64,000 nucleotides of DNA. Origin: Flavobacteriaceae bacterium. GTDB taxonomy: Bacteria > Bacteroidota > Bacteroidia > Flavobacteriales > Flavobacteriaceae. Position 1 is the first letter of the stretch; each line of letters opens with the position of its first letter. A model generated the notes under the pieces. That model searched no databases, was not told the DNA's origin, and saw nothing but the letters and a program-made list of their open reading frames with translations. Positions 18,561 through 63,596 of this stretch are shown piece after piece. The stretch spans positions 124,001 through 188,000 of the forward strand of contig JAQWSK010000005.1 in assembly GCA_029243245.1 (NCBI GenBank). The letters are read 5' to 3'. Both the position numbers and the translations under genes were made by a program.

Positions 18561-19898
18561 ATGAAAAACAAGTGTGTTATTTTAGGATCAGGAATTAGTG
18601 GAGTTGGAACAGCACAGTTGGCAATTAAAGAAGGATTTAGTGTTTTTGTATCCGATTCAGGTCCAATTAAAAGTGATATAAAAGATAAATTTAAAAATTG
18701 GGGGGTTTCTTGGGAAGAAAATGTACAAAAATCAAGTTTTTTAAAAAATGCAGATTGGATAATGAAAAGCCCAGGAATATCTAATTCTTCTTCTTCAGTT
18801 TTAAATGCAAATAAATTAGGAATTCCAATTTTATCAGAAATAGAGTTTGCTTCAAGATTCACAAACGCAAAAATTATTGGAATAACAGGAAGTAATGGAA
18901 AAACTACTACCACAGAACTAACTTATCATATATTAAAAAATTCTGGATTAAATGTAGGTATAGCAGGAAATATCGGAAAAAGTTTTGCTCAACAAGTTGC
19001 AGAAAACTCTTTTGAAATTTATGTTTTGGAATTAAGTAGTTTTCAGTTAGAAGATATTATTGATTTTGCTCCTGATGTTGCAGTAATAACTAATATTACT
19101 CCAGATCATTTAGATCGCTATAATAATAATTTTAATGACTATATAAAGTCTAAACTCAGAATAACTTTAAATCAAACTAATGATCAATTTTTGCTTTTAA
19201 ATTCAAATGATCCAGTTTTAATTAAAGCAGTTGAACAAGAATCAATTGAAGCTCAAAAACATTTATTTGGGTTTAATATAGAAGGGGGCTCAACAACCTC
19301 ATTAAAAAATAACAGAATAATTATTGAATATAAAAACGTTAACACTATGATTTCAGCTAATACATTTCAGCTTAAAGGAAGACACAATTTACTTAATGCA
19401 ATGGCCGCTTCTACAATTGCATCCATATTTAGATTGAATAAAAAAAGTATTCGTGAAAGCTTATCAAATTTTAGAGGATTGCCTCACCGCCTTGAACATG
19501 TTTTAAAGATCCAAGATGTGAATTATATAAATGATTCTAAGGCAACAAATGTTAATGCAACTTTTTATGCTTTAGAAACATTAAATACTAAAGGAATTTG
19601 GATTGCTGGAGGGGTTGATAAAGGAAATAACTATGAGCAACTATTACCTTTAGTTAGGGAGAAAATTAAGGCGATTATCTGTTTAGGAAAAAATAATCAA
19701 AGATTGATTGAAGTTTTTTATGAAGTAACAAATATTATGGTTGAAACACAATCGATTGAAGAAGCTGTAAAAATAGCTCACAACCTTTCCAAAAAAAAGG
19801 AAACAGTTTTATTATCACCAGCTTGCGCTAGTTTTGATTTATTTGAAAGTTATGAAGATCGTGGAAATCAGTTTAAAAATGCAGTAAGAAATTTATGA
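18561..19898 (+). CDS. murD: UDP-N-acetylmuramoyl-L-alanine:D-glutamate ligase
   Basis: MurD adds D-Glu to UDP-MurNAc-L-Ala. The 445-residue protein has an N-terminal Rossmann domain (ILGSGISGVGTA), the ATP loop GSNGKTTTTE (residues 110-119), ITPDHLDRYN in the central domain, and C-terminal GLPHRLEH and NDSKATN. The ATG directly follows the mraY stop, and its TGA overlaps the ftsW ATG. Confidence 0.96.
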   Translation: MKNKCVILGSGISGVGTAQLAIKEGFSVFVSDSGPIKSDIKDKFKNWGVSWEENVQKSSFLKNADWIMKSPGISNSSSSVLNANKLGIPILSEIEFASRFTNAKIIGITGSNGKTTTTELTYHILKNSGLNVGIAGNIGKSFAQQVAENSFEIYVLELSSFQLEDIIDFAPDVAVITNITPDHLDRYNNNFNDYIKSKLRITLNQTNDQFLLLNSNDPVLIKAVEQESIEAQKHLFGFNIEGGSTTSLKNNRIIIEYKNVNTMISANTFQLKGRHNLLNAMAASTIASIFRLNKKSIRESLSNFRGLPHRLEHVLKIQDVNYINDSKATNVNATFYALETLNTKGIWIAGGVDKGNNYEQLLPLVREKIKAIICLGKNNQRLIEVFYEVTNIMVETQSIEEAVKIAHNLSKKKETVLLSPACASFDLFESYEDRGNQFKNAVRNL

Positions 19899-21091
19899 GT
19901 TTAACTTCGAGAAATTATTGGATTAAAGGAGACCGTGTTTTATGGTGTATTATATCATTATTAGCAATATTTTCCTTTTTGCCAGTTTTTAGTGCAAGCT
20001 CAAATCTTGCTTATGTAATTGGAAAAGGAACACCCATAGGATACTTGATTAAACATTTTGTAATAATGTCATTTGGATTTTCACTTTTATTTGCTGTTCA
20101 TAAAATTCCATATACATACTTTAAAGGAATTTCTGTTTTAATGATGCCAGTTGTTTTTATTTTACTGATTTACACTGCTTCACAAGAAAATGTAATTAGT
20201 GGAGCAAATGCAAATAGATGGATAGAGATTCCTATAATTGGTTTTAGTTTTCAAACCTCTACACTTGCATCTATAATTCTAATGATTTATGTGGCTCATT
20301 ATATGTCAAAATCTGATAATAATTATTTAAAGTTTAAAAGGTCTTTTTGGTTATTATGGATCCCTATTATTTCTATTATAATGCTAATATTTCCTTCAAA
20401 TTTTTCAACTGCAGCGATACTTTTTTTTATGGTTATGGTTCAAATGTTCATTGGCGGTTATCCATCAAAGTTTCTTATTTACATATTAGGTTTTGGATTG
20501 ATAATTGTTTTTATATTTTTTTTATCAGCTAAAGTATTTCCTGAAGTTATTCCAAATAGAATTGACACATGGACTAGTAGGATTGAAAATTTTAGATCTG
20601 GAAATGCAGATGGAAATTATCAAATTGAACGAGCTAAAATTGCAATTGCTACAGGTGGAGTATATGGGCAGGGTGCTGGAAAAAGTGTAATGAAAAATTT
20701 TCTTCCACAAAGCTCATCGGATTTTATATATGCTATAATTGTTGAAGAATATGGTCTTATAGGAGGTATAATTTTAATTTTATTATATATACTTCTCCTT
20801 TTTAGGATAGTTGTTATCGTTCATAAAACTTCAAATTTATTTGGAAAACTTTTAGTTTTGGGCTTAGGAATTCCAATAGTTTTTCAAGCATTTATAAATA
20901 TAGGTGTTACTCTCCAGCTTTTTCCTGTAACTGGCCAAACGCTTCCTTTGGTTAGTAGCGGAGGCACTTCAGCTTGGATGACATTTGTAGCATTAGGTAT
21001 TATTTTGAGCGTGAGTAGTTCAATTCAAAATAATAATCAAGATGATACGAAAATTAAGAACCCATTAGCCATTTTAAGTGAAGACAAATAA
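19895..21091 (+). CDS. ftsW: Septal peptidoglycan glycosyltransferase FtsW
   Basis: FtsW is a SEDS-family polymerase that extends glycan chains from lipid II at the division site. The 398-residue sequence is highly hydrophobic, with about ten membrane helices. Signatures include NANRWIEIP, YQIERAKIAIATGG-type loop (around 20623-20660), FLPQSSSDFIYAIIVEEYGL, and TGQTLPLVSSGGTS. It overlaps murD by 4 bases and murG by 14 bases. Confidence 0.95.
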   Translation: MSLTSRNYWIKGDRVLWCIISLLAIFSFLPVFSASSNLAYVIGKGTPIGYLIKHFVIMSFGFSLLFAVHKIPYTYFKGISVLMMPVVFILLIYTASQENVISGANANRWIEIPIIGFSFQTSTLASIILMIYVAHYMSKSDNNYLKFKRSFWLLWIPIISIIMLIFPSNFSTAAILFFMVMVQMFIGGYPSKFLIYILGFGLIIVFIFFLSAKVFPEVIPNRIDTWTSRIENFRSGNADGNYQIERAKIAIATGGVYGQGAGKSVMKNFLPQSSSDFIYAIIVEEYGLIGGIILILLYILLLFRIVVIVHKTSNLFGKLLVLGLGIPIVFQAFINIGVTLQLFPVTGQTLPLVSSGGTSAWMTFVALGIILSVSSSIQNNNQDDTKIKNPLAILSEDK

Positions 21092-22166
21092 ATATATTAT
21101 TTCTGGGGGTGGTACAGGAGGACATATTTTTCCTGCACTGTCAATTGCTAATAAAATTAAAGAAGAAAATCCAGGATCCAACATTTTATTTGTAGGATCA
21201 ATTGGTAAAATGGAGATGAATAAAATTCCAGATTCTGGATTCTCTATAATTGGGCTTCCTATAGATGGTTTTCAACGTTCTTTATCTTATAGAAATATTC
21301 TATTTCCTTTCAAACTTTTGATTAGTCTTATAAAGTCAATTTTTATAGTGATCAGATACAAACCAGATGCTGTTATCGGAACGGGTGGTTTTGCTAGTGG
21401 TCCTGTAGTTTTTATTTCACAAATTTTAGGTTATCCTACGTTAATTCAAGAACAAAATTCATATGCCGGTGTAACAAATATAATACTTGGAAAAAGAGCA
21501 AAATTGGTTGCTGTAGCTTACCCTAATATGGAAAAATTCTTTTCAAAAGAAAAAATTGTATTAACTTGAAATCCTGTAAGAACAGATATAATTGAGAATG
21601 ATTTAAAATCATTAAATGCAAAATCATATTTTGACCTGGATCCTGACAAAGCAGTTATTGGAATTATTGGTGGGAGTTTAGGTGCTCTTAAAATAAACCA
21701 GGTAATTAGTAATTATTTAAATGTTTTTAATGATTTGGGAGTTCAGGTTATCTGGCAATGTGGAAAACTATATTATGAAAGATATAAGATTAAACAAACA
21801 AAAAGCATAAAAATAATACCTTTTATTACTAGAATGGATTATTTATATAAAGCTGTAGATGCTTTAATCTCTCGATCAGGTGCATTGACTATTTCTGAAA
21901 TTTGTATAACATGCACTCCTTCAATTTTAATACCCTCAGCAAATGTTGCTGAAAATCATCAATATCATAATGCTATGGTATTATATAATGAAAAAGCATC
22001 TGAGATAATTGAAGAAAAATATCTTGATGAAAATTTTAAAACTGTATTAACGAATTTTTGGTTAAATGATTCATTAAGAAATGAAATGAAAGAAAAATTA
22101 CAAAAAAGATCTAAACCTAATGCAACAGACGAAATTGTAAGAAACATAAAAAAAATAATAAATTGA
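21078..22166 (+). pseudogene. murG: murG interrupted by an in-frame UGA at codon 164
   Basis: MurG adds GlcNAc to lipid I, making lipid II. The reading frame is 362 codons, full length for the family, but codon 164 (21567-21569) is TGA. Before it: SGGGTGGH at residues 9-16, IGTGGFASGP, QEQNSYAGVTN and KIVLT. After it, in the same frame: NPVRTD, GGSLGA (21669-21686), SRSGALTISE and NVAENHQYHNA. Relatives read LTGNPVR, so TGA replaces a Gly codon (GGA to TGA is one change). A second usually conserved Gly, before the PSILIPS segment, is TGC (Cys, codon 279). No in-frame ATG, GTG or TTG exists between the stop and ATG 21735, which lies after GGSLGA. TGA is a normal stop elsewhere in this cluster. 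The cause may be a real nonsense mutation, a sequencing or assembly error, or readthrough. Confidence 0.85.
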
Positions 22167-23491
22167 AAGGTCTTAAAACATATTTTTTAATTGGAATTGG
22201 TGGTATTGGAATGTCTTCAATAGCTCAATATTTAATTCTAAAAGGTTATAATGTATTCGGATTTGATAGGGCTTCTTCAGCTATAACAGATTTGCTTGAG
22301 AGTAAGGGTGTAAAAATTAGTTTTACAGAATCAATTAATGATATACCAGAATATTCTGAAAAAAGTAAAATAGAAATTATTTATTCAGCAGCAATTAAAC
22401 CTGAACACCCAATTTTTTCTTATTTTATTAGGAAAGGATATAATCCTATTAAAAGAGCTGTGTTTTTAGCTTCAATAGTTAATAATACAGAATCTTATGC
22501 AATTGCAGGAACACATGGGAAAACTACTACCAGTGGAATTTTAACACATATTTTTAAAAATACTAAGACATCATTTTCTGCCTTTGTCGGCGGTATAATG
22601 TTGCCAGAAAAAACTAATTTTATTCATAATGGTTTTGAAAAGACAGTGGTTGAAGCTGATGAATTTGATAGATCATTTTTAAAACTCAGACCTTTTGTAG
22701 CATGTATCACATCCCTAGATGCAGATCATTTAGATATATATAAAAATCATAAATCATTGAAACAAGCATTTGTTAAATTTTCTAAGAATGTTAAAAGTCA
22801 ATTAATTATTCATCATTCAATTTCATTAAAAGGACTAACATATGGTATAAATGTTAGCGCTGATTATGTTTTCTATAATTGTAATCAAGTTAATGATGGA
22901 TATATTGTAGATGTTAAAACGCCAGAAAAAGAGTTTTCAAATATTTTTTGTAAAGTAATAGGAAAGCATAATTTAGAAAATATGTTAGCTGCTTTTACTT
23001 TAGCTTGTCAATCTGGTTATGCATCAGAAGAAATTATTTTATCATTAGGAACTTTTAATGGAATTCAAAGAAGAATGACAACTCATGAAATAGATGATAA
23101 AATAATAATTGACGATTATGCTCATCATCCTACCGAAATAGATGCTGTAAACAAAACCCTTAGAGAAAAATATCCAGGGTTATTTATTGAAGTAGTATTT
23201 CAACCACATCTGTTTTCAAGAACCAAAGATTTTATTGATGATTTTGCTTACCAATTATCAAAATTTGATAGTGTTAAATTAATGCAAATTTATCCTGCTC
23301 GAGAAGCTCCTATTCCGGGTATAGATAGCAATAAGATACTAAAAAAAATAACTTGTAAAGCAACTCTTCTAGATGAAAAAGAGTTTAATGATAATTTGAA
23401 TGATAACGATGCAGATGTCATAGCAGTATTAGGCGCTGGTAGTATTGGGGATTACATTGACAAGTATTTAAAAATAAAATCAATACAATGA
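22163..23491 (+). CDS. murC: UDP-N-acetylmuramate:L-alanine ligase
   Basis: MurC starts the peptide stem by adding L-Ala to UDP-MurNAc. The 442 residues include GIGGIGMSSIA at the N-terminus, the ATP loop GTHGKTTT (residues 116-123), DADHLDIY, and DDYAHHPTEIDA in the C-terminal domain. The start is TTG, overlapping the murG stop (TTGA). The next in-frame Met lies inside the Gly-rich loop, so a non-ATG start is required. Translation may be coupled to murG, which is interrupted upstream. Its TGA overlaps the ftsQ ATG. Confidence 0.95.
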   Translation: MKGLKTYFLIGIGGIGMSSIAQYLILKGYNVFGFDRASSAITDLLESKGVKISFTESINDIPEYSEKSKIEIIYSAAIKPEHPIFSYFIRKGYNPIKRAVFLASIVNNTESYAIAGTHGKTTTSGILTHIFKNTKTSFSAFVGGIMLPEKTNFIHNGFEKTVVEADEFDRSFLKLRPFVACITSLDADHLDIYKNHKSLKQAFVKFSKNVKSQLIIHHSISLKGLTYGINVSADYVFYNCNQVNDGYIVDVKTPEKEFSNIFCKVIGKHNLENMLAAFTLACQSGYASEEIILSLGTFNGIQRRMTTHEIDDKIIIDDYAHHPTEIDAVNKTLREKYPGLFIEVVFQPHLFSRTKDFIDDFAYQLSKFDSVKLMQIYPAREAPIPGIDSNKILKKITCKATLLDEKEFNDNLNDNDADVIAVLGAGSIGDYIDKYLKIKSIQ

Positions 23492-51464: not shown

Positions 51465-51839
51465 ATGCCAACTATTGCACAATTAGTAAGAAAAGGAAGA
51501 GTCACTAATACTAAAAAGAGTAAATCGGCTGCTTTGGAATCATGTCCACAACGTCGTGGTGTATGCACAAGAGTATATACAACAACCCCTAAAAAACCGA
51601 ACTCAGCAATGCGTAAAGTAGCTCGTGTTCGATTGACTAATGGGAAGGAAGTTAATGCTTATATTCCTGGTGAAGGACATAATCTTCAAGAGCATTCTAT
51701 AGTCTTGGTTCGTGGCGGAAGAGTAAAAGATTTACCAGGAGTTCGTTATCACATTGTTCGTGGAGCACTAGACACAGCTGGAGTTGAAGGACGACTTCAA
51801 AGACGTTCTAAATATGGAGCTAAACGGCCTAAAAAGTAA
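51465..51839 (+). CDS. rpsL: 30S ribosomal protein S12
   Basis: S12 sits at the decoding centre and affects accuracy. The 124-residue protein has the decoding loop [18 protein letters not shown] and [28 protein letters not shown], where streptomycin-resistance changes normally occur; Lys is present at the classical PKKPNS site. It is the first gene of the cluster and follows the promoter at 51387-51417. Confidence 0.98.
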
Positions 51840-51863
51840 TAATAATTTCTTCAAGCATTAATC

Positions 51864-52343
51864 ATGAGAAAAAGACAAGCAAAAAAACGCCCATTACTTC
51901 CAGATCCTAAATTTAAAGATCAGCTAGTTACACGTTTTGTAAACAATCTTATGTGGGATGGCAAAAAATCTACAGCTTTCAAAATTTTTTATGATGCTAT
52001 TGAAATTATAGAGGAGAGAAAGCAAGAACAAGATGAAAAAACAGGGATTGAAATATGGAAAGACGCTCTTTCTAATGTTATGCCTCATGTAGAGGTTAGA
52101 AGTAGAAGAGTTGGAGGAGCTACTTTTCAAATACCCATGCAAATTCGTCCAGACAGAAAAGTCTCTTTAGCCATGAAGTGGTTAATTAGTTATGCGCGTA
52201 AACGTAACGAAAAATCTATGGCTCTTAGACTTGCAAATGAGTGTCTTGCTGCAGAAAAAGAAGAAGGTGCCGCTGTTAAGAAAAGAGTAGATACCCATAA
52301 AATGGCTGAAGCAAATAAAGCCTTTTCTCATTTCAGATTCTAA
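51864..52343 (+). CDS. rpsG: 30S ribosomal protein S7
   Basis: S7 nucleates assembly of the 30S head. The 159 residues begin [16 protein letters not shown], with [33 protein letters not shown] and [16 protein letters not shown] at the end. It lies between rpsL and fusA with short gaps. Confidence 0.98.
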
Positions 52344-52364
52344 TTCAATAAGATTCAATTTAAA

Positions 52365-54491
52365 ATGGCAAGAGATTTAAGATATACACGAAACATTGGA
52401 ATTGCAGCTCATATTGATGCAGGTAAGACAACTACTACTGAGAGGATTCTTTTTTACACCGGTGTTAGTCATAAAATTGGAGAGGTTCATGATGGAGCGG
52501 CTACAATGGACTGGATGGAGCAAGAACAAGAGCGTGGAATTACTATAACATCTGCAGCAACAACTTGTACATGGTCTTTTCCTTCTGAACAAGGTGAAGT
52601 CACATCAGAAGCTAAAGATTATCAATTTAATATAATTGACACTCCCGGCCACGTTGACTTTACAGTTGAAGTAAACCGATCTTTAAGAGTTCTTGATGGA
52701 TTGGTTTTTTTATTTTCAGCTGTTGATGGCGTTGAACCTCAATCAGAAACAAATTGGCGTTTAGCCGATAACTACAAGGTTCCTCGTATTGGTTTTGTTA
52801 ACAAAATGGATCGTCAAGGATCGAACTTTTTAGGTGTCTGCAAGCAAGTAAAAGATATGCTTAAATCAAATGCTGTCCCAATAGTTTTAAATATTGGTGA
52901 TGAAGAAAATTTTAAGGGTATAATTGATTTGGTAAAAAATCGAGCTATTGTATGGCATGATGACAATTATGGTTCAACATTTGATGTTGTAGACATTCCT
53001 TCAGAACTTAAAGAAGAGGCAGAAATACTTCGTAATCAATTAATAGAAGCTGTTGCTGAATATGATGAAGTATTATTAGAGAAATTTTTTGACGATCCCG
53101 ATAGTATAACGGAAGATGAAGTTCATGACGCACTTAGAGCCGCTACTCAAGAAATAAGTATTATTCCTATGATTTGCGGATCTTCTTTTAAAAATAAAGG
53201 CGTACAATTTTTATTAGATGCTGTTTGCCGTTATTTACCTTCACCTGAAGATAAAGAGGCTATAATTGGTACTGATCCAAAAACAGATTTAGAGATTGCA
53301 AGACCGCCAAGTGTAAAAGAACCGTTTTCTGCATTAGCCTTTAAAATTGCTACTGACCCTTATGTTGGGCGCTTAGCATTTTTTCGTGCATATTCTGGAA
53401 GATTGGATGCAGGTTCATACGTTTTAAACAATCGATCTGGAAATAAGGAAAGGATTTCACGTATATATCAAATGCACTCTAATAAACAAAATTCTATTGA
53501 TTTTATTGAAGCAGGAGATATTGGAGCTGCAGTAGGTTTTAAAGACATTAAAACCGGGGATACTCTTTCAGAAGAAAAATCACCAATTGTATTAGAAAGC
53601 ATGGATTTTCCTGATCCAGTAATTGGAATTGCGGTTGAACCAAAGACTAAAGCTGATGTAGACAAATTAGGAATGTCTCTAGCTAAGTTAGCTGAGGAAG
53701 ATCCAACTTTTCAAGTTAAAACTGATGAAGCTTCTGGCCAAACAATTATTTCTGGAATGGGTGAACTTCACTTAGATATTATAGTTGATCGTCTTCGACG
53801 AGAATTTAAAGTTGAAGTAAATCAAGGAAAACCACAAGTTGAGTATAAAGAGGCCTTGACTGAAAAAGCTCAACATAGAGAAATTTATAAAAAACAATCT
53901 GGAGGTAGAGGGAAGTTTGCGGATATTGTATTTGACATTGAACCTGCTGAAGAAGGACAATCAGGACTAGAATTTGTCAATTTGATTAAAGGTGGAAATG
54001 TGCCAAAAGAATATATTCCTTCAGTAGAAAAAGGATTTAAGATGTCAATGAATAATGGTCCATTGGCAGGATTTGAAGTTGATTCTATGAAAATAACATT
54101 GAAGGATGGTTCTTTTCATGCAGTTGATTCAGATTCTCTTTCTTTTGAGTTAGCTGCTAAATTAGGATTTAAAGCAGCAGCTAAATCTGCAAAAGCTGTA
54201 ATAATGGAACCGATTATGAAGCTTGAAGTTATAACTCCAGAAGAAAATATGGGAGATATAGTAGGTGATTTAAATCGCCGTCGAGGACAAGTTAATTCAA
54301 TGGACGATAGGGCGGGGGCTAAAGTTGTAAGGGCTGAAGTTCCTCTTTCTGAAATGTTTGGATATGTAACTTCATTAAGAACACTTTCTTCGGGTAGAGC
54401 AACATCAACTATGGAATTTTCGCATTATGCAGAGACCCCATCAAATATTTCTGAAGCGGTTATTGCAGATGTAAAAGGAAAAAACGTTTAA
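52365..54491 (+). CDS. fusA: Elongation factor G
   Basis: EF-G drives translocation of the ribosome by GTP hydrolysis. The 708-residue protein has G1 AHIDAGKTT (residues 15-23), the switch I region [12 protein letters not shown]3 [10 protein letters not shown]4 NKMD, then domains II-V ([18 protein letters not shown] in domain III). rpsJ follows directly; tuf is not in this cluster, unlike the E. coli str operon. Confidence 0.97.
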
Positions 54492-54501
54492 TTATCGATC
54501 G

Positions 54502-54807
54502 ATGAGTCAAAAAATTAGAATAAAATTAAAATCTTACGATCACAATTTAGTAGATAAGTCTGCTGATAAAATCGTAAAAACAGTAAAGACAACAGGTGCT
54601 GTAGTAACTGGACCTATTCCACTTCCTACAAACAAAAAAATCTTTACAGTATTACGTTCACCACACGTAAATAAAAAATCACGTGAGCAATTTAAACTTT
54701 GTTACTATAAGCGTTTATTAGATATATATAGCTCTTCATCAAAAACAATTGATGCGTTGATGAAATTAGAATTACCTAGTGGTGTTGAGGTAGAAATAAA
54801 AGTATAA
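54502..54807 (+). CDS. rpsJ: 30S ribosomal protein S10
   Basis: S10 is a head protein of the small subunit and, in many bacteria, a NusB partner in transcription antitermination. The 101 residues include [45 protein letters not shown] and the C-terminal [11 protein letters not shown]. It joins the str and S10 operons, 10 bases after fusA. Confidence 0.98.
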
Positions 54808-54828
54808 TTAAAATAATTAAAAGTAATC

Positions 54829-55446
54829 ATGTCTGGATTAATCGGAAAAAAAGTTGGAATGACATCACTTTATGATAGTAATGGAAAAAACATTCCATGT
54901 ACCGTGATAGAGGCTGGTCCTTGCGTGGTTACCCAAGTTAGAACTAAAGATATTGATGGGTATGAAGCCCTTCAATTAGGCTTCGACGACAAGTCTGAAA
55001 AAAACAGCTCTAAAGCGGCTATGGGTCATTTTAAAAAAGCTAACACTCCTGTCAAACGTAAACTTGTAGAATTTCAAAATTTTAGTGAAGATTATAAACT
55101 GGGTGACCTAATTACAGTTGAACATTTTCTTGAAGGAGAATTTGTTGATGTTTCGGGAATATCTAAAGGAAAAGGATTTCAGGGAGTAGTTAAACGACAT
55201 GGTTTTGCTGGAGTAGGACAAGCTACTCATGGACAACATAATCGTCTTCGTGCTCCAGGATCAATCGGTGCTGCATCCTACCCTGCTAGAGTTTTTAAGG
55301 GTATGCGTATGGCTGGTCAAACTGGTAATGAAAATGTTCAAGTTCAAAATTTACGTGTAATTAAGATAGTTTTAGAAAAAAACCTTCTTGTTATTAAAGG
55401 TTGTGTGCCTGGACACAAAAATTCATATGTAATAATAAGTAAATAA
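54829..55446 (+). CDS. rplC: 50S ribosomal protein L3
   Basis: L3 is an early large-subunit assembly protein near the peptidyl-transferase centre. The 205 residues begin [15 protein letters not shown], with [39 protein letters not shown] and the extended loop [14 protein letters not shown]. Its TAA overlaps the rplD ATG by one base. Confidence 0.97.
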
Positions 55447-56078
55447 TGGAAATAGCTATTGTAAATATCGAAGGAAAAGACACCGGAAGAAAAGCAAAGC
55501 TTGATCCTTCAGTGTTTAGCGTTGAACCTAACAACCATGCAATCTATTTAGATGTAAAACAACATTTGGCAAATAAGCGTCAAGGTACTCACAAGTCAAA
55601 AGAACGTGCTGATATTACGGGCTCAACAAGAAAAATAAAAAAACAAAAAGGAACTGGAACTGCTAGAGCGGGTAGTATTAAAAATCCTATATTTAGGGGA
55701 GGAGGTCGAGTTTTTGGACCTTCGCCAAGAGACTACAGCCAAAAAGTTAATAAAAAAGTTAAGCGTTTAGCTAGGAAATCTGCACTTAGCATTAAGGCTA
55801 ATGATAAAGCAATTATTGTTCTAGAAGATTTTCAATTATCAGAACCTAAAACTTCTTCTTACATAAATGTTTTAAAGGCATTAGGTATTGATGGTAAAAA
55901 ATCTTTACTGGTATTGGGAGAGCCAAATAAAAATGTATATTTGTCGTCGCGCAATTTAAAAAATTCTCAAGTTGTAATTAACTCAGAATTAAATACTTAC
56001 AAAATAACCAATGCTAGAAGTTTGGTTTTGTCAGAAAGTGCAATTGCCGAGTTAGAATCAATTTTGAATAAAGTTTAG
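55446..56078 (+). CDS. rplD: 50S ribosomal protein L4
   Basis: L4 lines the peptide exit tunnel. The 210 residues carry the tunnel loop KQKGTGTARAGSIKNPIFRGGG followed by VFGPSPRDY, and the C-terminal globular domain (SLLVLGEPNKNVYLSSRNL). Autogenous control of the S10 operon by L4 is known in E. coli; the leader for it is not evident here. Confidence 0.97.
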   Translation: MEIAIVNIEGKDTGRKAKLDPSVFSVEPNNHAIYLDVKQHLANKRQGTHKSKERADITGSTRKIKKQKGTGTARAGSIKNPIFRGGGRVFGPSPRDYSQKVNKKVKRLARKSALSIKANDKAIIVLEDFQLSEPKTSSYINVLKALGIDGKKSLLVLGEPNKNVYLSSRNLKNSQVVINSELNTYKITNARSLVLSESAIAELESILNKV

Positions 56079-56082
56079 ATAA

Positions 56083-56373
56083 ATGAGTATTATAATTAAA
56101 CCAATTATCACTGAAAAAGCGACATCAGATAGCGAGTTGAATAACCGTTATACTTTTCTTGTTGACACAAAAGCTAATAAAATTGAGATAAAAAAAGCTG
56201 TTGAGAATTCTTATGGAGTAAATGTAAATAAAGTTCGAACTATGAACTATGGCCTAGATCGAAAAACAAAATATACTAAGACTGGTATTCAGCATGGAAA
56301 AACGAATGCATTAAAAAAAGCTATAGTTCAGATAGCAGATGGTGATGTAATTGATTTTTATAGTAATTTATAA
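56083..56373 (+). CDS. rplW: 50S ribosomal protein L23
   Basis: L23 lies at the tunnel exit and docks trigger factor and SRP. The 96 residues begin IIIKPIITEKAT, with YTFLVDTKANKIEIKKAVENSYGV and the VRTMNYGLDRKTKYTKTG loop. Spacing to rplD is 4 bases. Confidence 0.97.
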   Translation: MSIIIKPIITEKATSDSELNNRYTFLVDTKANKIEIKKAVENSYGVNVNKVRTMNYGLDRKTKYTKTGIQHGKTNALKKAIVQIADGDVIDFYSNL

Positions 56374-56383
56374 TATTAGATAA

Positions 56384-57208
56384 ATGTCAGTTAGAAAATT
56401 AAAACCAGTAACGCCCGCCCAAAGATTTAGAGTAGTAAATGGCTTTGATGCAATTACTACTGATAAACCCGAAAAAAGTTTGCTTGAAGCCAAAAAGCGA
56501 AGTGGTGGGAGAAATAATAAAGGTAAAATGACTATTCGTCATAGAGGTGGTGGTCATAAACGTCGTTATCGTGTTATTGATTTCAAGAGAAATAAGTTTG
56601 ATATTCCTGCAACCGTTCAATCAATAGAATATGATCCTAACAGAAGCTCATTTATTGCGCTTCTTGAATATAAAGATGGAGAGAAAAGGTATATTATTGC
56701 TCAAAACGGATTGAAAATTGGTCAGAAAATTTCTTCTGGAGATAAGTCTTCGCCAGATATTGGAAACTCTTTACCATTATCAAAAATACCCTTGGGAACG
56801 ATAATTTCATGTATTGAACTACAACCTGAAAAAGGTGCAGTTATAGCTAGAAGTGCTGGTGCTTTTGCTCAATTGATGGCTAGAGATGGTAAATTTGCAA
56901 CAATTAAAATGCCTTCAGGTGAAACTAGATTAATTCAAACAATTTGTTTAGCTACAGTTGGTGCAGTTTCTAATTCAGATCATCAGTTGTTAGTGTCTGG
57001 AAAAGCTGGACGTTCTCGTTGGTTGGGTCGTCGTCCTAGAACAAGACCTGTAGCAATGAACCCGGTTGATCACCCAATGGGTGGAGGAGAAGGTAAAGCT
57101 TCTGGAGGACATCCTCGTTCCCGTAATGGGATTCCTGCTAAAGGATTCCGTACACGTACAAAAACAAAAGCAAGTAACAAGTTCATTATTGAGCGAAGAA
57201 AAAAATAA
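56384..57208 (+). CDS. rplB: 50S ribosomal protein L2
   Basis: L2 is essential for subunit joining and peptidyl transfer. The 274 residues include [33 protein letters not shown], and the C-terminal [18 protein letters not shown] with the conserved His of the PVDHP motif. It lies 10 bases after rplW. Confidence 0.98.
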
Positions 57209-57211
57209 ACT

Positions 57212-57490
57212 ATGGCACGTTCACTTAAAAAAGGTCCTTTTGTTCATCATAGCTTACATGCTAAGATTAATAAGAATATAGAAAACAAAAAGAAAACTGT
57301 TATAAAAACTTGGTCTCGTGCATCATTGATTACACCTGATTTTGTTGGACAAACGATAGGAGTTCATAATGGAAAGACCCATGTTCCCGTTTATATTACA
57401 GAAAACATGGTTGGACATAAACTAGGCGAGTTTTCACCAACAAGATCATTTCGTGGACATGCTGGAGCTAAAAATAAAAGTAATAGATAA
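57212..57490 (+). CDS. rpsS: 30S ribosomal protein S19
   Basis: S19 binds the 16S head with S13. The 92 residues begin [18 protein letters not shown] and contain [23 protein letters not shown] and [15 protein letters not shown], all family hallmarks. The gap to rplB is 3 bases. Confidence 0.98.
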
Positions 57491-57495
57491 GCACT

Positions 57496-57900
57496 ATGGG
57501 AAATCGTAAAAGACAGAGTGCTGAACTCATAAAGAATGATAAAAAAGATATTGCTTTTGCAAAATTGAATAATTGTCCTACTTCTCCACGTAAAATGCGA
57601 TTAGTAGCAGATCAGGTTAGAGGAGAAAATATTAATAAAGCTCTTTCTATACTTAAGTTTAGCTCAAAAGAAGCTTCACGTAGATTAGAAAAGTTATTGC
57701 TGTCAGCAATATCGAACTGGCAAGCTAAAAATGAAGAAAATGATATAGAAAATGCAGCATTATTTGTAAAAGAAATTAAAGTAGATAGTGGAAGTATGCT
57801 TAAACGCCTTCGTACAGCTCCCCAGGGACGTGCTCATCGAATCAGAAAACGATCAAATCATGTAACCCTAGTTTTGGGTGCAAATAATATTGAAGATTAA
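57496..57900 (+). CDS. rplV: 50S ribosomal protein L22
   Basis: L22 lines the exit tunnel with a long beta-hairpin. The 134 residues contain [22 protein letters not shown], the helical core, and the hairpin and tail [22 protein letters not shown]. It has an extended N-terminus of about 20 residues relative to E. coli, common in Bacteroidota. It lies 5 bases after rpsS. Confidence 0.96.
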
Positions 57901-57903
57901 ATT

Positions 57904-58632
57904 ATGGGACAAAAAACAAATCCTATTGGAAATCGCTTGGGAATAATAAGAGGCTGGGACTCTAATTGGTATGGAGGTAGTGATTACGGTGACAAATTAG
58001 CTGAGGATGATAAAATCCGAAAGTATATCAATGTTCGTTTAGTAAAAGCTAGCGTTTCAAATGTTATAATTGAGAGAACATTGAAATTAATTACTGTAAC
58101 TATTACTACAGCTCGTCCAGGTATAATCATTGGTAAAGCAGGACAGGAAGTTGATAAACTCAAAGAAGAGTTAAAGAAAATCACTGAAAAAGAAGTTCAA
58201 ATAAATATTTTCGAGATTAAAAGACCTGAGTTAGATGCAAAACTTGTTGCTGCTAGTATTGCTCGTCAAATTGAAAACCGTATTTCATATAGACGAGCAA
58301 TTAAAATGGCAATTGCTTCATCTATTAGGATGAATGCCGAGGGCGTTAAAGTTCAAATTTCAGGACGTTTGAATGGTGCTGAAATGGCAAGAAGCGAGTC
58401 TTATAAAGAAGGTCGTATTCCATTATCAACTTTTAGAGCTGATATAGATTACGCTCTAGTAGAAGCGCATACTACGTATGGACGATTAGGTGTTAAAGTA
58501 TGGATTATGAAAGGAGAAGTTTATGGAAGAAGAGAATTATCACCACTTGTTGGAATGCAAAAAAAATCAGGATTAAATTCGAAAAACAATAATAAATCTG
58601 GACTTCGTCAACAAAGACGTGGAAGAAAATAA
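57904..58632 (+). CDS. rpsC: 30S ribosomal protein S3
   Basis: S3 is at the mRNA entry channel and has helicase activity. The 242 residues comprise the start [21 protein letters not shown], the KH domain with [16 protein letters not shown], and the C-terminal domain ([32 protein letters not shown]). The tail from 58560 on is basic and Asn/Lys/Arg-rich. Confidence 0.97.
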
Positions 58633-58651
58633 TTTGAATTAACTAGGGATC

Positions 58652-59086
58652 ATGTTACAACCTAAAAGAACAAAATTTCGGAAAGCACAAAAAGGAAGAA
58701 TGAAAGGTCTTTCTCAAAGAGGTAATCTGTTATCTAATGGAATGTTTGGTATTAAATCTACAGATTCTCACTTTATAACTTCTAGGCAGATTGAAGCTGC
58801 TAGGATTGCTGCCACTAGATACATGAAACGTGAAGGGCAATTATGGATTAAAATTTTCCCAGATAAGCCTATCACTAAAAAACCTTTGGAAGTTAGAATG
58901 GGGAAAGGTAAAGGAGCACCAGAATATTTTGTTGCCGTGGTTAAACCTGGTAGAATAATATTTGAAGTTGCAGGAGTTTCTTTAGAGATAGCAAAAGAAG
59001 CTCTTAGGCTCGCAGCTCAAAAATTACCTGTTCGAACTAAATTTATTATTGCTCGAGATTATGAAAACCAAACTGACGATAGATGA
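58652..59086 (+). CDS. rplP: 50S ribosomal protein L16
   Basis: L16 helps organise the A-site of the large subunit. The 144 residues begin [19 protein letters not shown], with [45 protein letters not shown] and [12 protein letters not shown]. Its TGA stop overlaps the rpmC ATG (ATGA). Confidence 0.97.
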
Positions 59087-59268
59087 AACAAACAGAAATA
59101 GAAAAACTCTCGTTAGAAGATTTAATAGATAAACTAGAGGAATTCAAAAAACAATTAAATGACTTAAGAATGACACATTCGATCTCACCTCTAGAAAATC
59201 CAATACAGATTCGAGATGTCCGCAGAACAATATCACGTTTATTAACAGCAAAAAATGCTAAAGAATAA
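59083..59268 (+). CDS. rpmC: 50S ribosomal protein L29
   Basis: L29 is a two-helix protein at the tunnel exit. The 61 residues show the [13 protein letters not shown] helix and [14 protein letters not shown], as expected for the family. Start overlaps rplP by 4 bases; rpsQ follows after 20 bases. Confidence 0.94.
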
Positions 59269-59288
59269 ACCAATAAGGAATAACTATA

Positions 59289-59546
59289 ATGGAAAATAGA
59301 AATCTTAGAAAAGAACGAATTGGGGTAGTAACTAGTAATAAAATGGAAAAATCTATTATTGTTGCTGAAGTTAAGAGAACCAAACATCCAATGTATGGAA
59401 AATACGTTCTAAAGACTAAAAAGTATACCGCTCATGATGAAACAAATGATTGTAATATCGGTGATACAGTTAAAATAATGGAAACTCGTCCTTTGAGTAA
59501 GTCAAAAAACTGGAGATTAGTTGAAATAATAGAAAGAGCAAAATAA
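59289..59546 (+). CDS. rpsQ: 30S ribosomal protein S17
   Basis: S17 is a primary 16S-binding OB-fold protein. The 85 residues contain [37 protein letters not shown] and [23 protein letters not shown]. The gap to rplN is 1 base. Confidence 0.97.
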
Positions 59547-59547
59547 A

Positions 59548-59916
59548 ATGTTACAACAAGAATCAAGACTTAAGGTTGCAGATAATACTGGCGCAAAAGA
59601 AGTGTTAACAATTAGGGTGCTAGGAGGTACAAAGAGACGTTATGCGTCTGTAGGTGATAAAATAGTTATTACAGTTAAAGATGCTACACCTGCAGGTACA
59701 GTTAAAAAAGGACAGGTGTCTACTGCAGTTGTTGTTAGAACTACAAAAGAAATTCTACGCTCAGATGGATCATATATTCGTTTTGATGATAATGCTTGTG
59801 TTTTACTTAACGAAACTGGAGAAATGAGAGGAACTCGAGTTTTTGGTCCTGTTGCCCGTGAATTAAGGGATAAACAGTTTATGAAAATTGTTTCATTAGC
59901 ACCTGAGGTGTTATAA
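59548..59916 (+). CDS. rplN: 50S ribosomal protein L14
   Basis: L14 forms part of the subunit interface with L19. The 122 residues begin [18 protein letters not shown], with [47 protein letters not shown]. Normal length and no anomalies. Confidence 0.98.
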
Positions 59917-59926
59917 ATTTTAACCT

Positions 59927-60238
59927 ATGGCAAAATTTAAAATTAGAAAAGGAGATAATGTTCGAGTAATAACTGGAGCTCAAAAAGGAAGTGAAGGAAA
60001 GGTAGTCAAAATTCTTTCAGATTCAGGTAGAGCTATTGTTGAGGGAGTTAATTTAATTAAAAAACATACCAAGCCAAGTGCTCAAAGCCCTCAAGGAGGT
60101 ATTGTTGAAAAGGAGGCCTCAATTGATATTTCAAACCTTTCAATACTTAATTCAGATGGAAAGACTACCAGAATAGGCTTTCGAATTGAGGATGATAAAA
60201 AAGTTCGATATTCTAAAAAATCAAATGAAGTTTTATAA
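59927..60238 (+). CDS. rplX: 50S ribosomal protein L24
   Basis: L24 initiates large-subunit assembly. The 103 residues contain the KOW motif [19 protein letters not shown] and [22 protein letters not shown], then the C-terminal [19 protein letters not shown]. It lies 10 bases after rplN. Confidence 0.97.
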
Positions 60239-60240
60239 TT

Positions 60241-60792
60241 ATGAACTATCAACCAAGACTTAAAAAGGAATATAAAGAAAGAATAATGAATTCTCTAAAA
60301 GAAGAATTTAGTTATTCTAATATAATGCAAGTACCTAGACTTGATAAAATTGTTATTAGTCGAGGTGTCGGTGCAGCTGTATCAGATAAAAAACTTATCG
60401 ATTATGCTGTAGATGAGTTAACACAAATTTCGGGTCAAAAGGCTGTTCCAACAATATCAAAAAAAGATGTTGCTTCTTTTAAATTAAGAAAAGGGATGCC
60501 GATTGGAACCAAAGTCACTCTTCGTGGAGAGAGAATGTATGAGTTTTTAGACAGACTTGTTACTGTAGCATTGCCTCGTGTAAGAGATTTTCAAGGCGTA
60601 AAATCAACTGGTTTTGATGGACGTGGAAATTATAACCTTGGAGTTACAGAGCAGATTATCTTTCCTGAAATTGATATTGATAAAGTTAATAAAATAGGTG
60701 GTATGGACATTACATTTGTTACCAATGCAGGAACAGATAAGGAAGCAAAGTCATTGTTGAACGAATTGGGCCTTCCCTTTAAAAAGAATTAA
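60241..60792 (+). CDS. rplE: 50S ribosomal protein L5
   Basis: L5 binds 5S rRNA and contacts the P-site tRNA. The 183 residues include [50 protein letters not shown] and [12 protein letters not shown]. Gap to rplX is 2 bases and to rpsN 1 base. Confidence 0.98.
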
Positions 60793-60793
60793 T

Positions 60794-61063
60794 ATGGCAA
60801 AAGAATCAATGAAAGCTCGTGAAGTAAAAAGAGCTAAAATAGTAGCAAAGTACTCTGCTAAACGAAAAGCTTTAAAAGAGGCTGGTGATTATGAAGCTCT
60901 CCAAAAATTACCAAAAAATGCTTCTCCGGTTCGCTTACATAATCGTTGTAAGTTAACAGGGCGACCAAAAGGTTATATACGTCAGTTTGGAGTTTCTCGT
61001 GTTACATTTAGAGAGATGGCAAATAAAGGATTAATACCAGGAGTAACAAAAGCTAGCTGGTAA
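60794..61063 (+). CDS. rpsN: 30S ribosomal protein S14, long zinc-free form
   Basis: S14 is a head protein of the small subunit. The 89-residue sequence ([41 protein letters not shown]) is the long C-minus type: it lacks the two CxxC pairs of the short zinc-binding S14. It agrees with the zinc-free forms of DnaG and AccD in this window, although long S14 is common in many bacteria. Confidence 0.97.
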
Positions 61064-61075
61064 AAATATATATAT

Positions 61076-61477
61076 ATGAATACAGACCCAATTGCAGATT
61101 ATTTAACTCGACTTCGTAATGCTAATAGTGCTGGTCATCGCGTAGTTGACATCCCATCATCTAATTTAAAACAGGATATGACTAAAATCCTTTTTGATCA
61201 AGGATATATTCTTAGTTATAAATTTGAAGAAACAAAAAATAATCAGGGCAATATAAAGATTGCTTTAAAGTATGATTTAAATACTAAAGATCCTGTTATT
61301 AAAAAATTACAAAGAATCAGTACTCCGGGATTGCGTAAGTATTCTGGAAGTGATGACCTTCCTCGAGTGCTAAATGGGCTAGGGATTTCAATTATTTCTA
61401 CATCTAAAGGTTTGATGACAGGAAAACAAGCAGAAAAACAAAAGGTAGGAGGCGAAGTCCTTTGTTACGTTTATTAA
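61076..61477 (+). CDS. rpsH: 30S ribosomal protein S8
   Basis: S8 is a primary 16S-binding protein and the repressor of the spc operon in E. coli. The 133 residues begin NTDPIADYLTRLRNANSAGH, with ISTPGLRKYSGSDDLPRVLNGLGI and ISTSKGLMTGKQAEKQKVGGEVLCYVY. Family length is normal. Confidence 0.98.
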   Translation: MNTDPIADYLTRLRNANSAGHRVVDIPSSNLKQDMTKILFDQGYILSYKFEETKNNQGNIKIALKYDLNTKDPVIKKLQRISTPGLRKYSGSDDLPRVLNGLGISIISTSKGLMTGKQAEKQKVGGEVLCYVY

Positions 61478-61496
61478 TAAAGAAATTGTATAAAAA

Positions 61497-62039
61497 ATGT
61501 CTAGAATAGGAAACAACCCCATATTATTACCAGAAGGTGTAACTTTGGATATTCAAGAGGATTTAATAATCGTTAGAGGTAAACTTGGTGAGTTAACTCA
61601 ATCATATTCTGGTGTTATTTTTGAAAATAAGAATGGTGTTTTAAATGTAATAAACCCACTAGAAACTAAAGATTCAAATGCTAAACATGGATTATACCGA
61701 GCGTTAGTGAATAATATGGTAGAGGGAGTTTCTAAGGGATTTACAAAAGAGCTAGAATTGGTTGGCGTTGGATATCGAGCGACTAATCAGGCTCAAATAC
61801 TTGATTTAGCATTAGGGTATTCCCATAATATTGTTTTTGATATAGCTCCTGAGGTTAAAGTTGAAACAATTTCTGAAAAAGGAAAAAACCCAATAATAAA
61901 GCTCAGATCGCACGACAAACAATTGATAGGTTTTGTTGCTGCTAAAATTAAGTCATTCAGAAAACCTGAACCATATAAAGGTAAAGGTATTCGGTTTGTT
62001 GGAGAAGAAATAAGAAGAAAAGCAGGTAAATCAGCATAA
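61497..62039 (+). CDS. rplF: 50S ribosomal protein L6
   Basis: L6 lies near the factor-binding site. The 180 residues begin SRIGNNPILLPEGVTL and show the duplicated L6 fold, with KELELVGVGYRA in the second half and the C-terminal PEPYKGKGIRFVGEEIRRKAGKSA signature. Confidence 0.98.
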   Translation: MSRIGNNPILLPEGVTLDIQEDLIIVRGKLGELTQSYSGVIFENKNGVLNVINPLETKDSNAKHGLYRALVNNMVEGVSKGFTKELELVGVGYRATNQAQILDLALGYSHNIVFDIAPEVKVETISEKGKNPIIKLRSHDKQLIGFVAAKIKSFRKPEPYKGKGIRFVGEEIRRKAGKSA

Positions 62040-62048
62040 TTTTATATA

Positions 62049-62399
62049 ATGGGATTGACAAAAACAGAACGTAGAGATAGAATTCGAAAAAGAATTCGAA
62101 AAACAATATCAGGAAATTCATCAGAGCCGAGATTAGCTGTTTTCCGTAGTAATAAAGAAATTTATGCTCAATTAATCGACGACCAAAATGGAAAAACTCT
62201 TGCAACAGCATCTTCAAGAGAAAAAGATGTTTCTGGATCATCTAGAATTGAAAAATCTGCAATCGTTGGAAAATTAATTGCTGAACGTTCAATAGCGGCG
62301 GGTGTACAAACTGTTAAATTTGATCGTGGTGGATATTTATACCATGGTCGAGTTAAATCATTAGCAGAGGGTGCTCGTGAAGCAGGTCTTAAATTTTAA
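62049..62399 (+). CDS. rplR: 50S ribosomal protein L18
   Basis: L18 binds 5S rRNA. The 116 residues have the basic start ([15 protein letters not shown]), [18 protein letters not shown], and the C-terminal [25 protein letters not shown]. The repeated Arg-Ile-Arg-Lys is encoded by two tandem copies of a 12-base unit at about 62080-62103. Confidence 0.97.
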
Positions 62400-62411
62400 T
62401 AGATTAAATAT

Positions 62412-62936
62412 ATGTATCAAAACTATAGTAATATCGAATATGTTAAACCGGCAGGACTTGATTTAAAAGACCGTTTGGTAGGTGTCCAACGTGTAACTAA
62501 AGTAACTAAAGGAGGGCGAGCATTTGGTTTTTCTGCAATAGTTGTTGTAGGTGACGAGAATGGAGTTTTAGGACAGGGTTTAGGTAAATCAAAAGAAGTA
62601 TCTGAAGCTATTGCTAAAGCTATTGAGGATGCAAAGAAAAACTTGGTGAGAATTCCTATAAAAAAAGGAACATTACCTCACGAGCAAAAAGGAAAATATG
62701 GGGGTGCTAGAGTATTCCTGAAGCCAGCTTCTGAAGGAACTGGAGTTATTGCTGGCGGAGCTGTTCGAGCTGTATTAGAAGCAGTAGGTGTTCATAATGT
62801 TCTTTCAAAATCTCAAGGATCTTCTAATCCTCACAATGTGGTAAAGGCTACTTTTGATGCATTACTTCAACTACGAAGCCCAGAAACAATTGCTTATCAA
62901 AGAGGAGTGTCAATTAATAAAGTATTTAATGGTTAA
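62412..62936 (+). CDS. rpsE: 30S ribosomal protein S5
   Basis: S5 contributes to decoding fidelity and mRNA unwinding. The 174 residues contain [65 protein letters not shown] and [20 protein letters not shown]. rpmD follows 10 bases downstream. Confidence 0.98.
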
Positions 62937-62946
62937 ATCTATTAAA

Positions 62947-63126
62947 ATGGAAAAAATTAAAGTTAAACAGTTAAAAAGCAGTATTAAGAGAATTAAGTCT
63001 CAAAAAAGAACTCTTGAGGCTTTGGGTTTAAAAGGTATTGGAAAAGAGGTTATACATGATGCTTCTCCTAGTATTTTAGGAATGATAAAAAAGGTAGAAC
63101 ATTTGGTTTCAGTTGTTGAAGCTTAA
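62947..63126 (+). CDS. rpmD: 50S ribosomal protein L30
   Basis: L30 is a small peripheral protein. I use ATG 62947 (EKIKVKQLKSSIKRIKSQ), giving the usual 59 residues; a longer open frame begins inside rpsE but its extra N-terminus is not L30-like. The sequence continues KRTLEALGLKGIGKEVIHDASPSILGMI, a typical L30. Confidence 0.95.
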   Translation: MEKIKVKQLKSSIKRIKSQKRTLEALGLKGIGKEVIHDASPSILGMIKKVEHLVSVVEA

Positions 63127-63137
63127 AAATAAAATAA

Positions 63138-63596
63138 ATGAGTTTAAGTAATTTACAACCCGCAAGTGGGTCAACACATAAAAATAGTAAAAGATTAGGT
63201 CGTGGTCAAGGCTCAGGAAAAGGTGGTACAGCAGCGAGAGGACATAAAGGTGCAAAATCTCGTTCGGGATATTCTAAAAAATTAGGATTTGAAGGTGGAC
63301 AAATGCCCTTGCAGAGACGTGTTCCAAAGTTTGGCTTTAAAAACATTAATCGAAAAGAGTATACAGTTATTAATATTGATACTATTCAAAGTTTAGTTGA
63401 TTCAAAAAAAATAAAAGGTGAGCTTACTATTGATCATTTAATTTCACTTCGTTTAGCTGGGAAGAATGATCTTGTAAAAATTTTAGGAAGAGGAAAAATT
63501 GAAGCTTCAATAAAAGTTTCAGCTCATAAATTTACTTCTACCGCTAAAACTGCTATTGAAAAGGCAGGAGGAGAAGTTATTAGCTTAGAACAATAA
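63138..63596 (+). CDS. rplO: 50S ribosomal protein L15
   Basis: L15 acts late in large-subunit assembly. The 152 residues start SLSNLQPASGSTHKNSKRLGRG, with GSGKGGTAARGHKGAKSRSG, FEGGQMPLQRRVPKFGF and the C-terminal KFTSTAKTAIEKAGGEV. secY starts 2 bases after its stop. Confidence 0.97.
   Translation: MSLSNLQPASGSTHKNSKRLGRGQGSGKGGTAARGHKGAKSRSGYSKKLGFEGGQMPLQRRVPKFGFKNINRKEYTVINIDTIQSLVDSKKIKGELTIDHLISLRLAGKNDLVKILGRGKIEASIKVSAHKFTSTAKTAIEKAGGEVISLEQ

Follow-up and report, generated by a model that had tools for sequence, protein, structure and literature searches.

The murG locus

The DNA analysed here, called the window, is a stretch of 64,000 nucleotides (C9:124001-188000) from a genome of 1.80 Mb (G000), which is in 16 contigs, is 90% complete, and has a G+C content of 30% in the part that was surveyed. 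The murG frame is found in the dcw cluster between ftsW and murC, which is the usual place for this gene. The features of the locus, in window coordinates, are:

19895..21091, + strand: ftsW, overlapping the start of murG; best NCBIfam match ftsW at 251.4 bits, below the cut-off of 337.5
21078..22166, + strand: murG frame, with a GTG start within the end of ftsW and one internal TGA
21567..21569, + strand: the internal TGA, codon 164 of murG; a glycine codon in 36/36 aligned relatives
21570..22166, + strand: downstream half of murG, the UDP-GlcNAc side by homology; gene-like; first usual start TTG 21735, first ATG 21834
22163..23491, + strand: murC, with a TTG start and a 4-base overlap with the real murG stop; best NCBIfam match murC at 323.7 bits, just under the cut-off of 335.1

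Nine neighbouring genes were compared with NCBIfam profiles. Six score above the cut-off (RsmH, MurE, MraY, MurD, FtsA and FtsZ), and the other three, namely FtsI-like, FtsW and MurC, match their own family below it. At the upstream end (21077-21084), the GTG start of murG lies inside the end of ftsW. The surrounding stretch, AGTGAAGA, occurs in seven of the eight genus loci including the window, with GTGAAGA at the murG start in all eight. At the downstream end, the murG stop and the TTG start of murC overlap in an ATTGA (22163-22166), which is seen in six of these eight loci, the window among them; the start of murC, as located by script, is the overlap TTG in three of the six, a more upstream TTG in two, and was not located in one. 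A stop some 600 bases early in murG would probably also uncouple murC. Further along the window (51465-63596), short open reading frames, most of them on the same strand, follow one another in a long series which, judged by ORF lengths only, resembles a ribosomal-protein/elongation-factor cluster.

Translation of 21078-22169 gives 163 residues up to the TGA at 21567-21569 and, with no change of frame, a further 198 residues up to the TGA at 22164-22166. The earlier note on this DNA had described a single in-frame TGA inside murG without a frameshift, and the translation agrees with this in both respects: there is one stop, and since both halves share a frame, a frameshift is ruled out. The source record thus does not encode a continuous two-domain chain. 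When the TGA is read as glycine, the frame scores 265.3 bits against the NCBIfam murG cut-off of 250.25, and a profile search of the genome that reads through stops finds it at 262.7 bits. This was the only murG match in the 90% complete genome, so that the second copy for which the earlier note had proposed a search was not found there.

Relatives and the two halves of the gene

Relatives of murG were collected in overlapping sets, from a genus search of seven genomes (source included), from 60 genomes (the source and 59 relatives), and from 140 genomes of the family, the last two sets both including the source genome. Three of the 140 family genomes have no murG match at E <= 1e-40, and the other 137 have exactly one each. 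An internal stop is present in one of these 137 matches and in one of the 61 full-length matches from the 60 genomes, and in each case the one is the source murG. It is therefore absent from all 136 other family matches, two of which are truncated N-terminally, and from all 60 other full-length matches. A wider search of the order found a match in 368 of 395 genomes, which were left out of the stop rate.

The only one of the 60 genomes with two full-length murG copies is G006, which is 6% contaminated. This genus-mate bin holds two similar yet different murG clusters (C57 and C42), one of them with ambiguous bases, as would be expected from a strain mixture.

Codon 164 could be compared in 36 of the 60 other full-length matches, comprising seven genus copies from six genomes (a duplicate G003 locus was dropped) and 29 others. 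All 36 have glycine and none has a stop, and the codon is GGA in six of the seven genus copies, so that one substitution explains the TGA. The earlier note had expected as much: it suggested glycine at this position in family members, a single base change, and an alignment of related genomes as the check, and the alignment upholds it.

No second genome of the same species was found. The nearest genus-mate among the genomes compared is G003, with which the murG frame (with X at the stop) is 74.6% identical over 362 protein residues. Among the best 80 of 572 genome_contigs loci encoding a relative, identity over the N-terminal half of murG is 61% at most, and the loci closest to it come mostly from Flavobacteriales and other Bacteroidota, on which basis the source is taken to be a flavobacterium with a small genome. 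A plasmid search for murG copies gave two weak matches covering 9%. A search of viral_contigs with a DNA pattern allowing any first base in the codon matched no stretch, though host genes would not be expected there in any case.

Constraint on the two halves was judged from change counts. With G005 as outgroup, residue changes confined to one lineage number 17 in the window and 18 in G003 downstream of the stop, and 6 and 13 respectively upstream of it; the downstream half has thus changed no faster than in G003. At downstream columns that are invariant in the genus, the window deviates at 2/64, G003 at 6/68 and G005 at 8/69; when each of the other genus copies is left out in turn, downstream deviations run from 0/57 and 0/62 (the two mutually similar G006 copies) up to 14/75. 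Upstream of the stop, the window differs at 1 of the 68 columns on which all seven genus copies agree. On the window lineage, single-base changes of codons after the stop comprise 10 nonsynonymous and 9 synonymous ones, against an unconstrained expectation of 82% nonsynonymous (P = 0.003). On this basis we reject the possibility that the downstream half has drifted without constraint ever since the lineage parted from G003.

As far as these counts go, the downstream half appears not clearly decayed, and they indicate that murG was retained through much of the period after the two lineages diverged. The nonsynonymous share downstream in the window (10/19) is higher than in G003 (5/20, P = 0.11) and higher than upstream in the window (3/13, P = 0.15); neither difference is significant, and they give a weak hint that could fit a recent relaxation. 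A very recent lesion in murG is possible.

Decoding of UGA and quality of the record

TGA ends 42 of the 306 long open reading frames in 464 kb of the source genome. Within the cluster ftsL (named by position only), ftsI, murD, murC and murG itself all end in TGA, as the earlier note had pointed out. The gene for RF2 (C11:326667-327686, minus strand) is intact and matches its profile at 464.6 bits against a cut-off of 370. It begins with a 21-codon leader frame that ends at CTT TGA C, preceded by AGGAGG (the site is at about position 1498 of the reverse complement of locus L149), with the rest of the gene in the +1 frame. We take this to be the classical autoregulatory +1 programmed frameshift. 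Such a site makes sense only if RF2 reads UGA, and on this sequence evidence UGA is a stop in the source genome.

The tRNA genes give no sign of another decoder. None of the 32 Rfam tRNA matches, all of which are covered by ARAGORN, has a UCA anticodon, with the proviso that the genome is 90% complete. The tRNA-Trp has a CCA anticodon and a G at position 24, and so lacks the Hirsh-type suppressor change. The tRNA-Sec search gave six matches, the best at 41.4 bits and none above the gathering score of 47; ARAGORN assigns these six places to three Leu, two Ser and one Tyr tRNA, which speaks against a selenoprotein.

The record itself was surveyed over 464 kb (26% of the genome, the window included), using coding statistics to locate in-frame stops within coding-like frames. 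Three places were flagged. One is murG, and the other two resemble ordinary gene borders, where a usual start comes 8 or 11 codons past the stop: one follows a frame that reads, on our own reading of the sequence, like GMP synthase, and the other precedes a second, weaker match to the RF2 profile, which is probably RF1. The rule that flags murG recovered 188 of 306 planted in-frame stops (61%), and a looser rule for headless segments recovered 102 of 306. Planted one-base deletions were detected in 92 of 306 cases, so the survey says little about frameshifts.

At this sensitivity of 61%, the 400 kb outside the window contain no clear in-frame break. Given this null result, substitution errors could nevertheless be as frequent as about 2e-4 per base, since no more than 6-7% of random changes would turn one of these codons into a stop, and at such a rate a single error does not require a poor assembly. 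There is no N in the 464 kb, and the murG stop, at C9:145567 of 209184, is well away from both ends of its contig. By this survey the record is a good one, with which a single error is compatible.

The headless rule gave eight further segments besides murG, of which one is antisense to a 435-codon frame and six are of 22 to 53 codons. The eighth, on C9 outside the window (L157:18108-18323), is a coding-like segment of 71 codons that lacks ATG, GTG and TTG and lies 54 bases ahead of a long frame. It is either a fragment or a small gene whose start codon is unusual.

Origin of the stop

What the locus presents is a single-base change, at the codon for a conserved glycine, in a murG that is normal in other respects and is the sole copy in one record. 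On this reading no special mechanism acts on the TGA: the ribosome would terminate there via RF2, leaving an N-terminal domain of 163 residues that lacks the UDP-GlcNAc-binding domain. MurG is presumably essential in the source organism, and full-length MurG probably exists in the living population. In draft genome records, a nonsense change can be a consensus error or a rare allele. The gene around the stop looks ordinary and working, and a one-letter slip or a rare dead-end variant is consequently the most likely explanation. We put the probability at roughly 0.88 that the stop is a private one-base nonsense change, counting together an error of sequencing or assembly in the consensus and a nonsense allele that is rare or very recent. 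If it is an allele, the working members of the population would make full-length MurG.

The remaining readings have to supply MurG in some other way. A real lesion could be made good by another gene, either a second murG or an unrelated glycosyltransferase, situated outside the known contigs, and about a tenth of the genome is indeed unseen. We consider this unlikely, given that the family genomes carry one murG apiece, that a full-length pair was met only in the contaminated bin, and that the downstream half is still constrained. That same half, with its maintained appearance, could speak for natural readthrough, in which a near-cognate tRNA such as tRNA-Trp decodes the UGA often enough to yield functional MurG; UGA is the leakiest of the bacterial stops, and MurG is needed in small amounts. 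The chance of this is slighter still. RF2 is intact with its autoregulatory site, the tRNA set (possibly incomplete at 90%) lacks the UCA anticodon, the tRNA-Trp is without the suppressor change, the stop is absent from all the relatives searched, and a residue other than glycine would fall where every aligned relative has glycine. A dedicated readthrough of the codon is thus not borne out by the tRNAs, whether UCA-anticodon tRNA, tRNA-Sec or tRNA-Trp is considered. Recoding of UGA as glycine or another residue throughout the organism would put the expected residue at codon 164, and SR1 and Gracilibacteria do read UGA as glycine. It was discounted as a genome-wide code in the earlier note from the TGA codons at gene ends, and to these can now be added the frequency of TGA among the long ORF ends, an RF2 whose frameshift site depends on UGA, the missing UCA tRNA, and the lack of a further clear in-frame TGA break in the 464 kb at 61% sensitivity. 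With RF2 retained and UGA in use, the probability of recoding is close to nil.

The position of the stop could suggest a two-chain enzyme. Naturally split relatives of the MurG-type enzyme exist, namely Alg14/Alg13 in eukaryotes and EpsE/EpsF in bacteria and archaea (PMC8993221). A border split of this kind, with the second chain started from a rare codon, would account for the maintained downstream half, and ATA 21588, ATT 21591 and CTG 21636 are in frame for such a start. The earlier note had placed the stop at the interdomain boundary, which is roughly right: counted along the alignment, the counterpart of residue 164 in the E. coli MurG chain 1f0k is at about position 160, a few residues before the domain border near residue 164 in E. 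coli. The note was also right that no ATG, GTG or TTG precedes 21735, but the codon there is a TTG and not an ATG. This first usual start is 55 codons past the stop and beyond the GGSLGA loop. A split that had become fixed should have left a usual start codon. Nor is a split kept across related species, the stop being found in none of the other 136 family and 60 full-length matches. A second chain of the Alg14/Alg13 type, with its own start near the border, finds little support here, and we regard a two-chain MurG as highly improbable. Even taken together, it is improbable that the organism makes its only MurG either as two chains, from a rare-codon start at the Alg14/Alg13 border, or whole through leaky reading of the UGA.

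The private nonsense change, as error or rare allele, is therefore preferred, and the murG stop is most likely not a new kind of split enzyme. The earlier note had offered error, population variant, readthrough and compensated lesion as options; a substitution at a glycine codon, with neither frameshift nor genome-wide recoding, is supported, while a second murG, dedicated readthrough and a split are not. Among the matches listed in a search of the literature on premature stops with murG or metagenome-assembled genomes, none is on this question by its title. The case carries a caution, in that a suggestive position at the domain border of a cell-wall enzyme does not count as evidence if the relatives, the start codons and the machinery of decoding all indicate an ordinary one-chain gene. 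Should the stop prove real and fixed, the gene would offer a natural experiment on MurG working as two chains or by readthrough.

Compared with MurG as represented by NCBIfam TIGR01133 and the E. coli structure 1f0k, the gene has a whole-length family match across the stop and the usual place between ftsW and murC; it differs in its one internal TGA, where the 36 aligned relatives have glycine. The likeness to Alg14/Alg13 and EpsE/EpsF (PMC8993221) is an interruption near the same domain border, whereas the gene here is a MurG in a dcw cluster, with no usual start for a second chain at the border and no split among the relatives searched. A further parallel is the ordinary nonsense change met in draft genomes: a single substitution in a single record, absent from the relatives searched, in a gene whose frame and constraint are otherwise intact. 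The murG stop departs from that pattern in affecting a cell-wall gene near a domain border, which is suggestive but fits chance.
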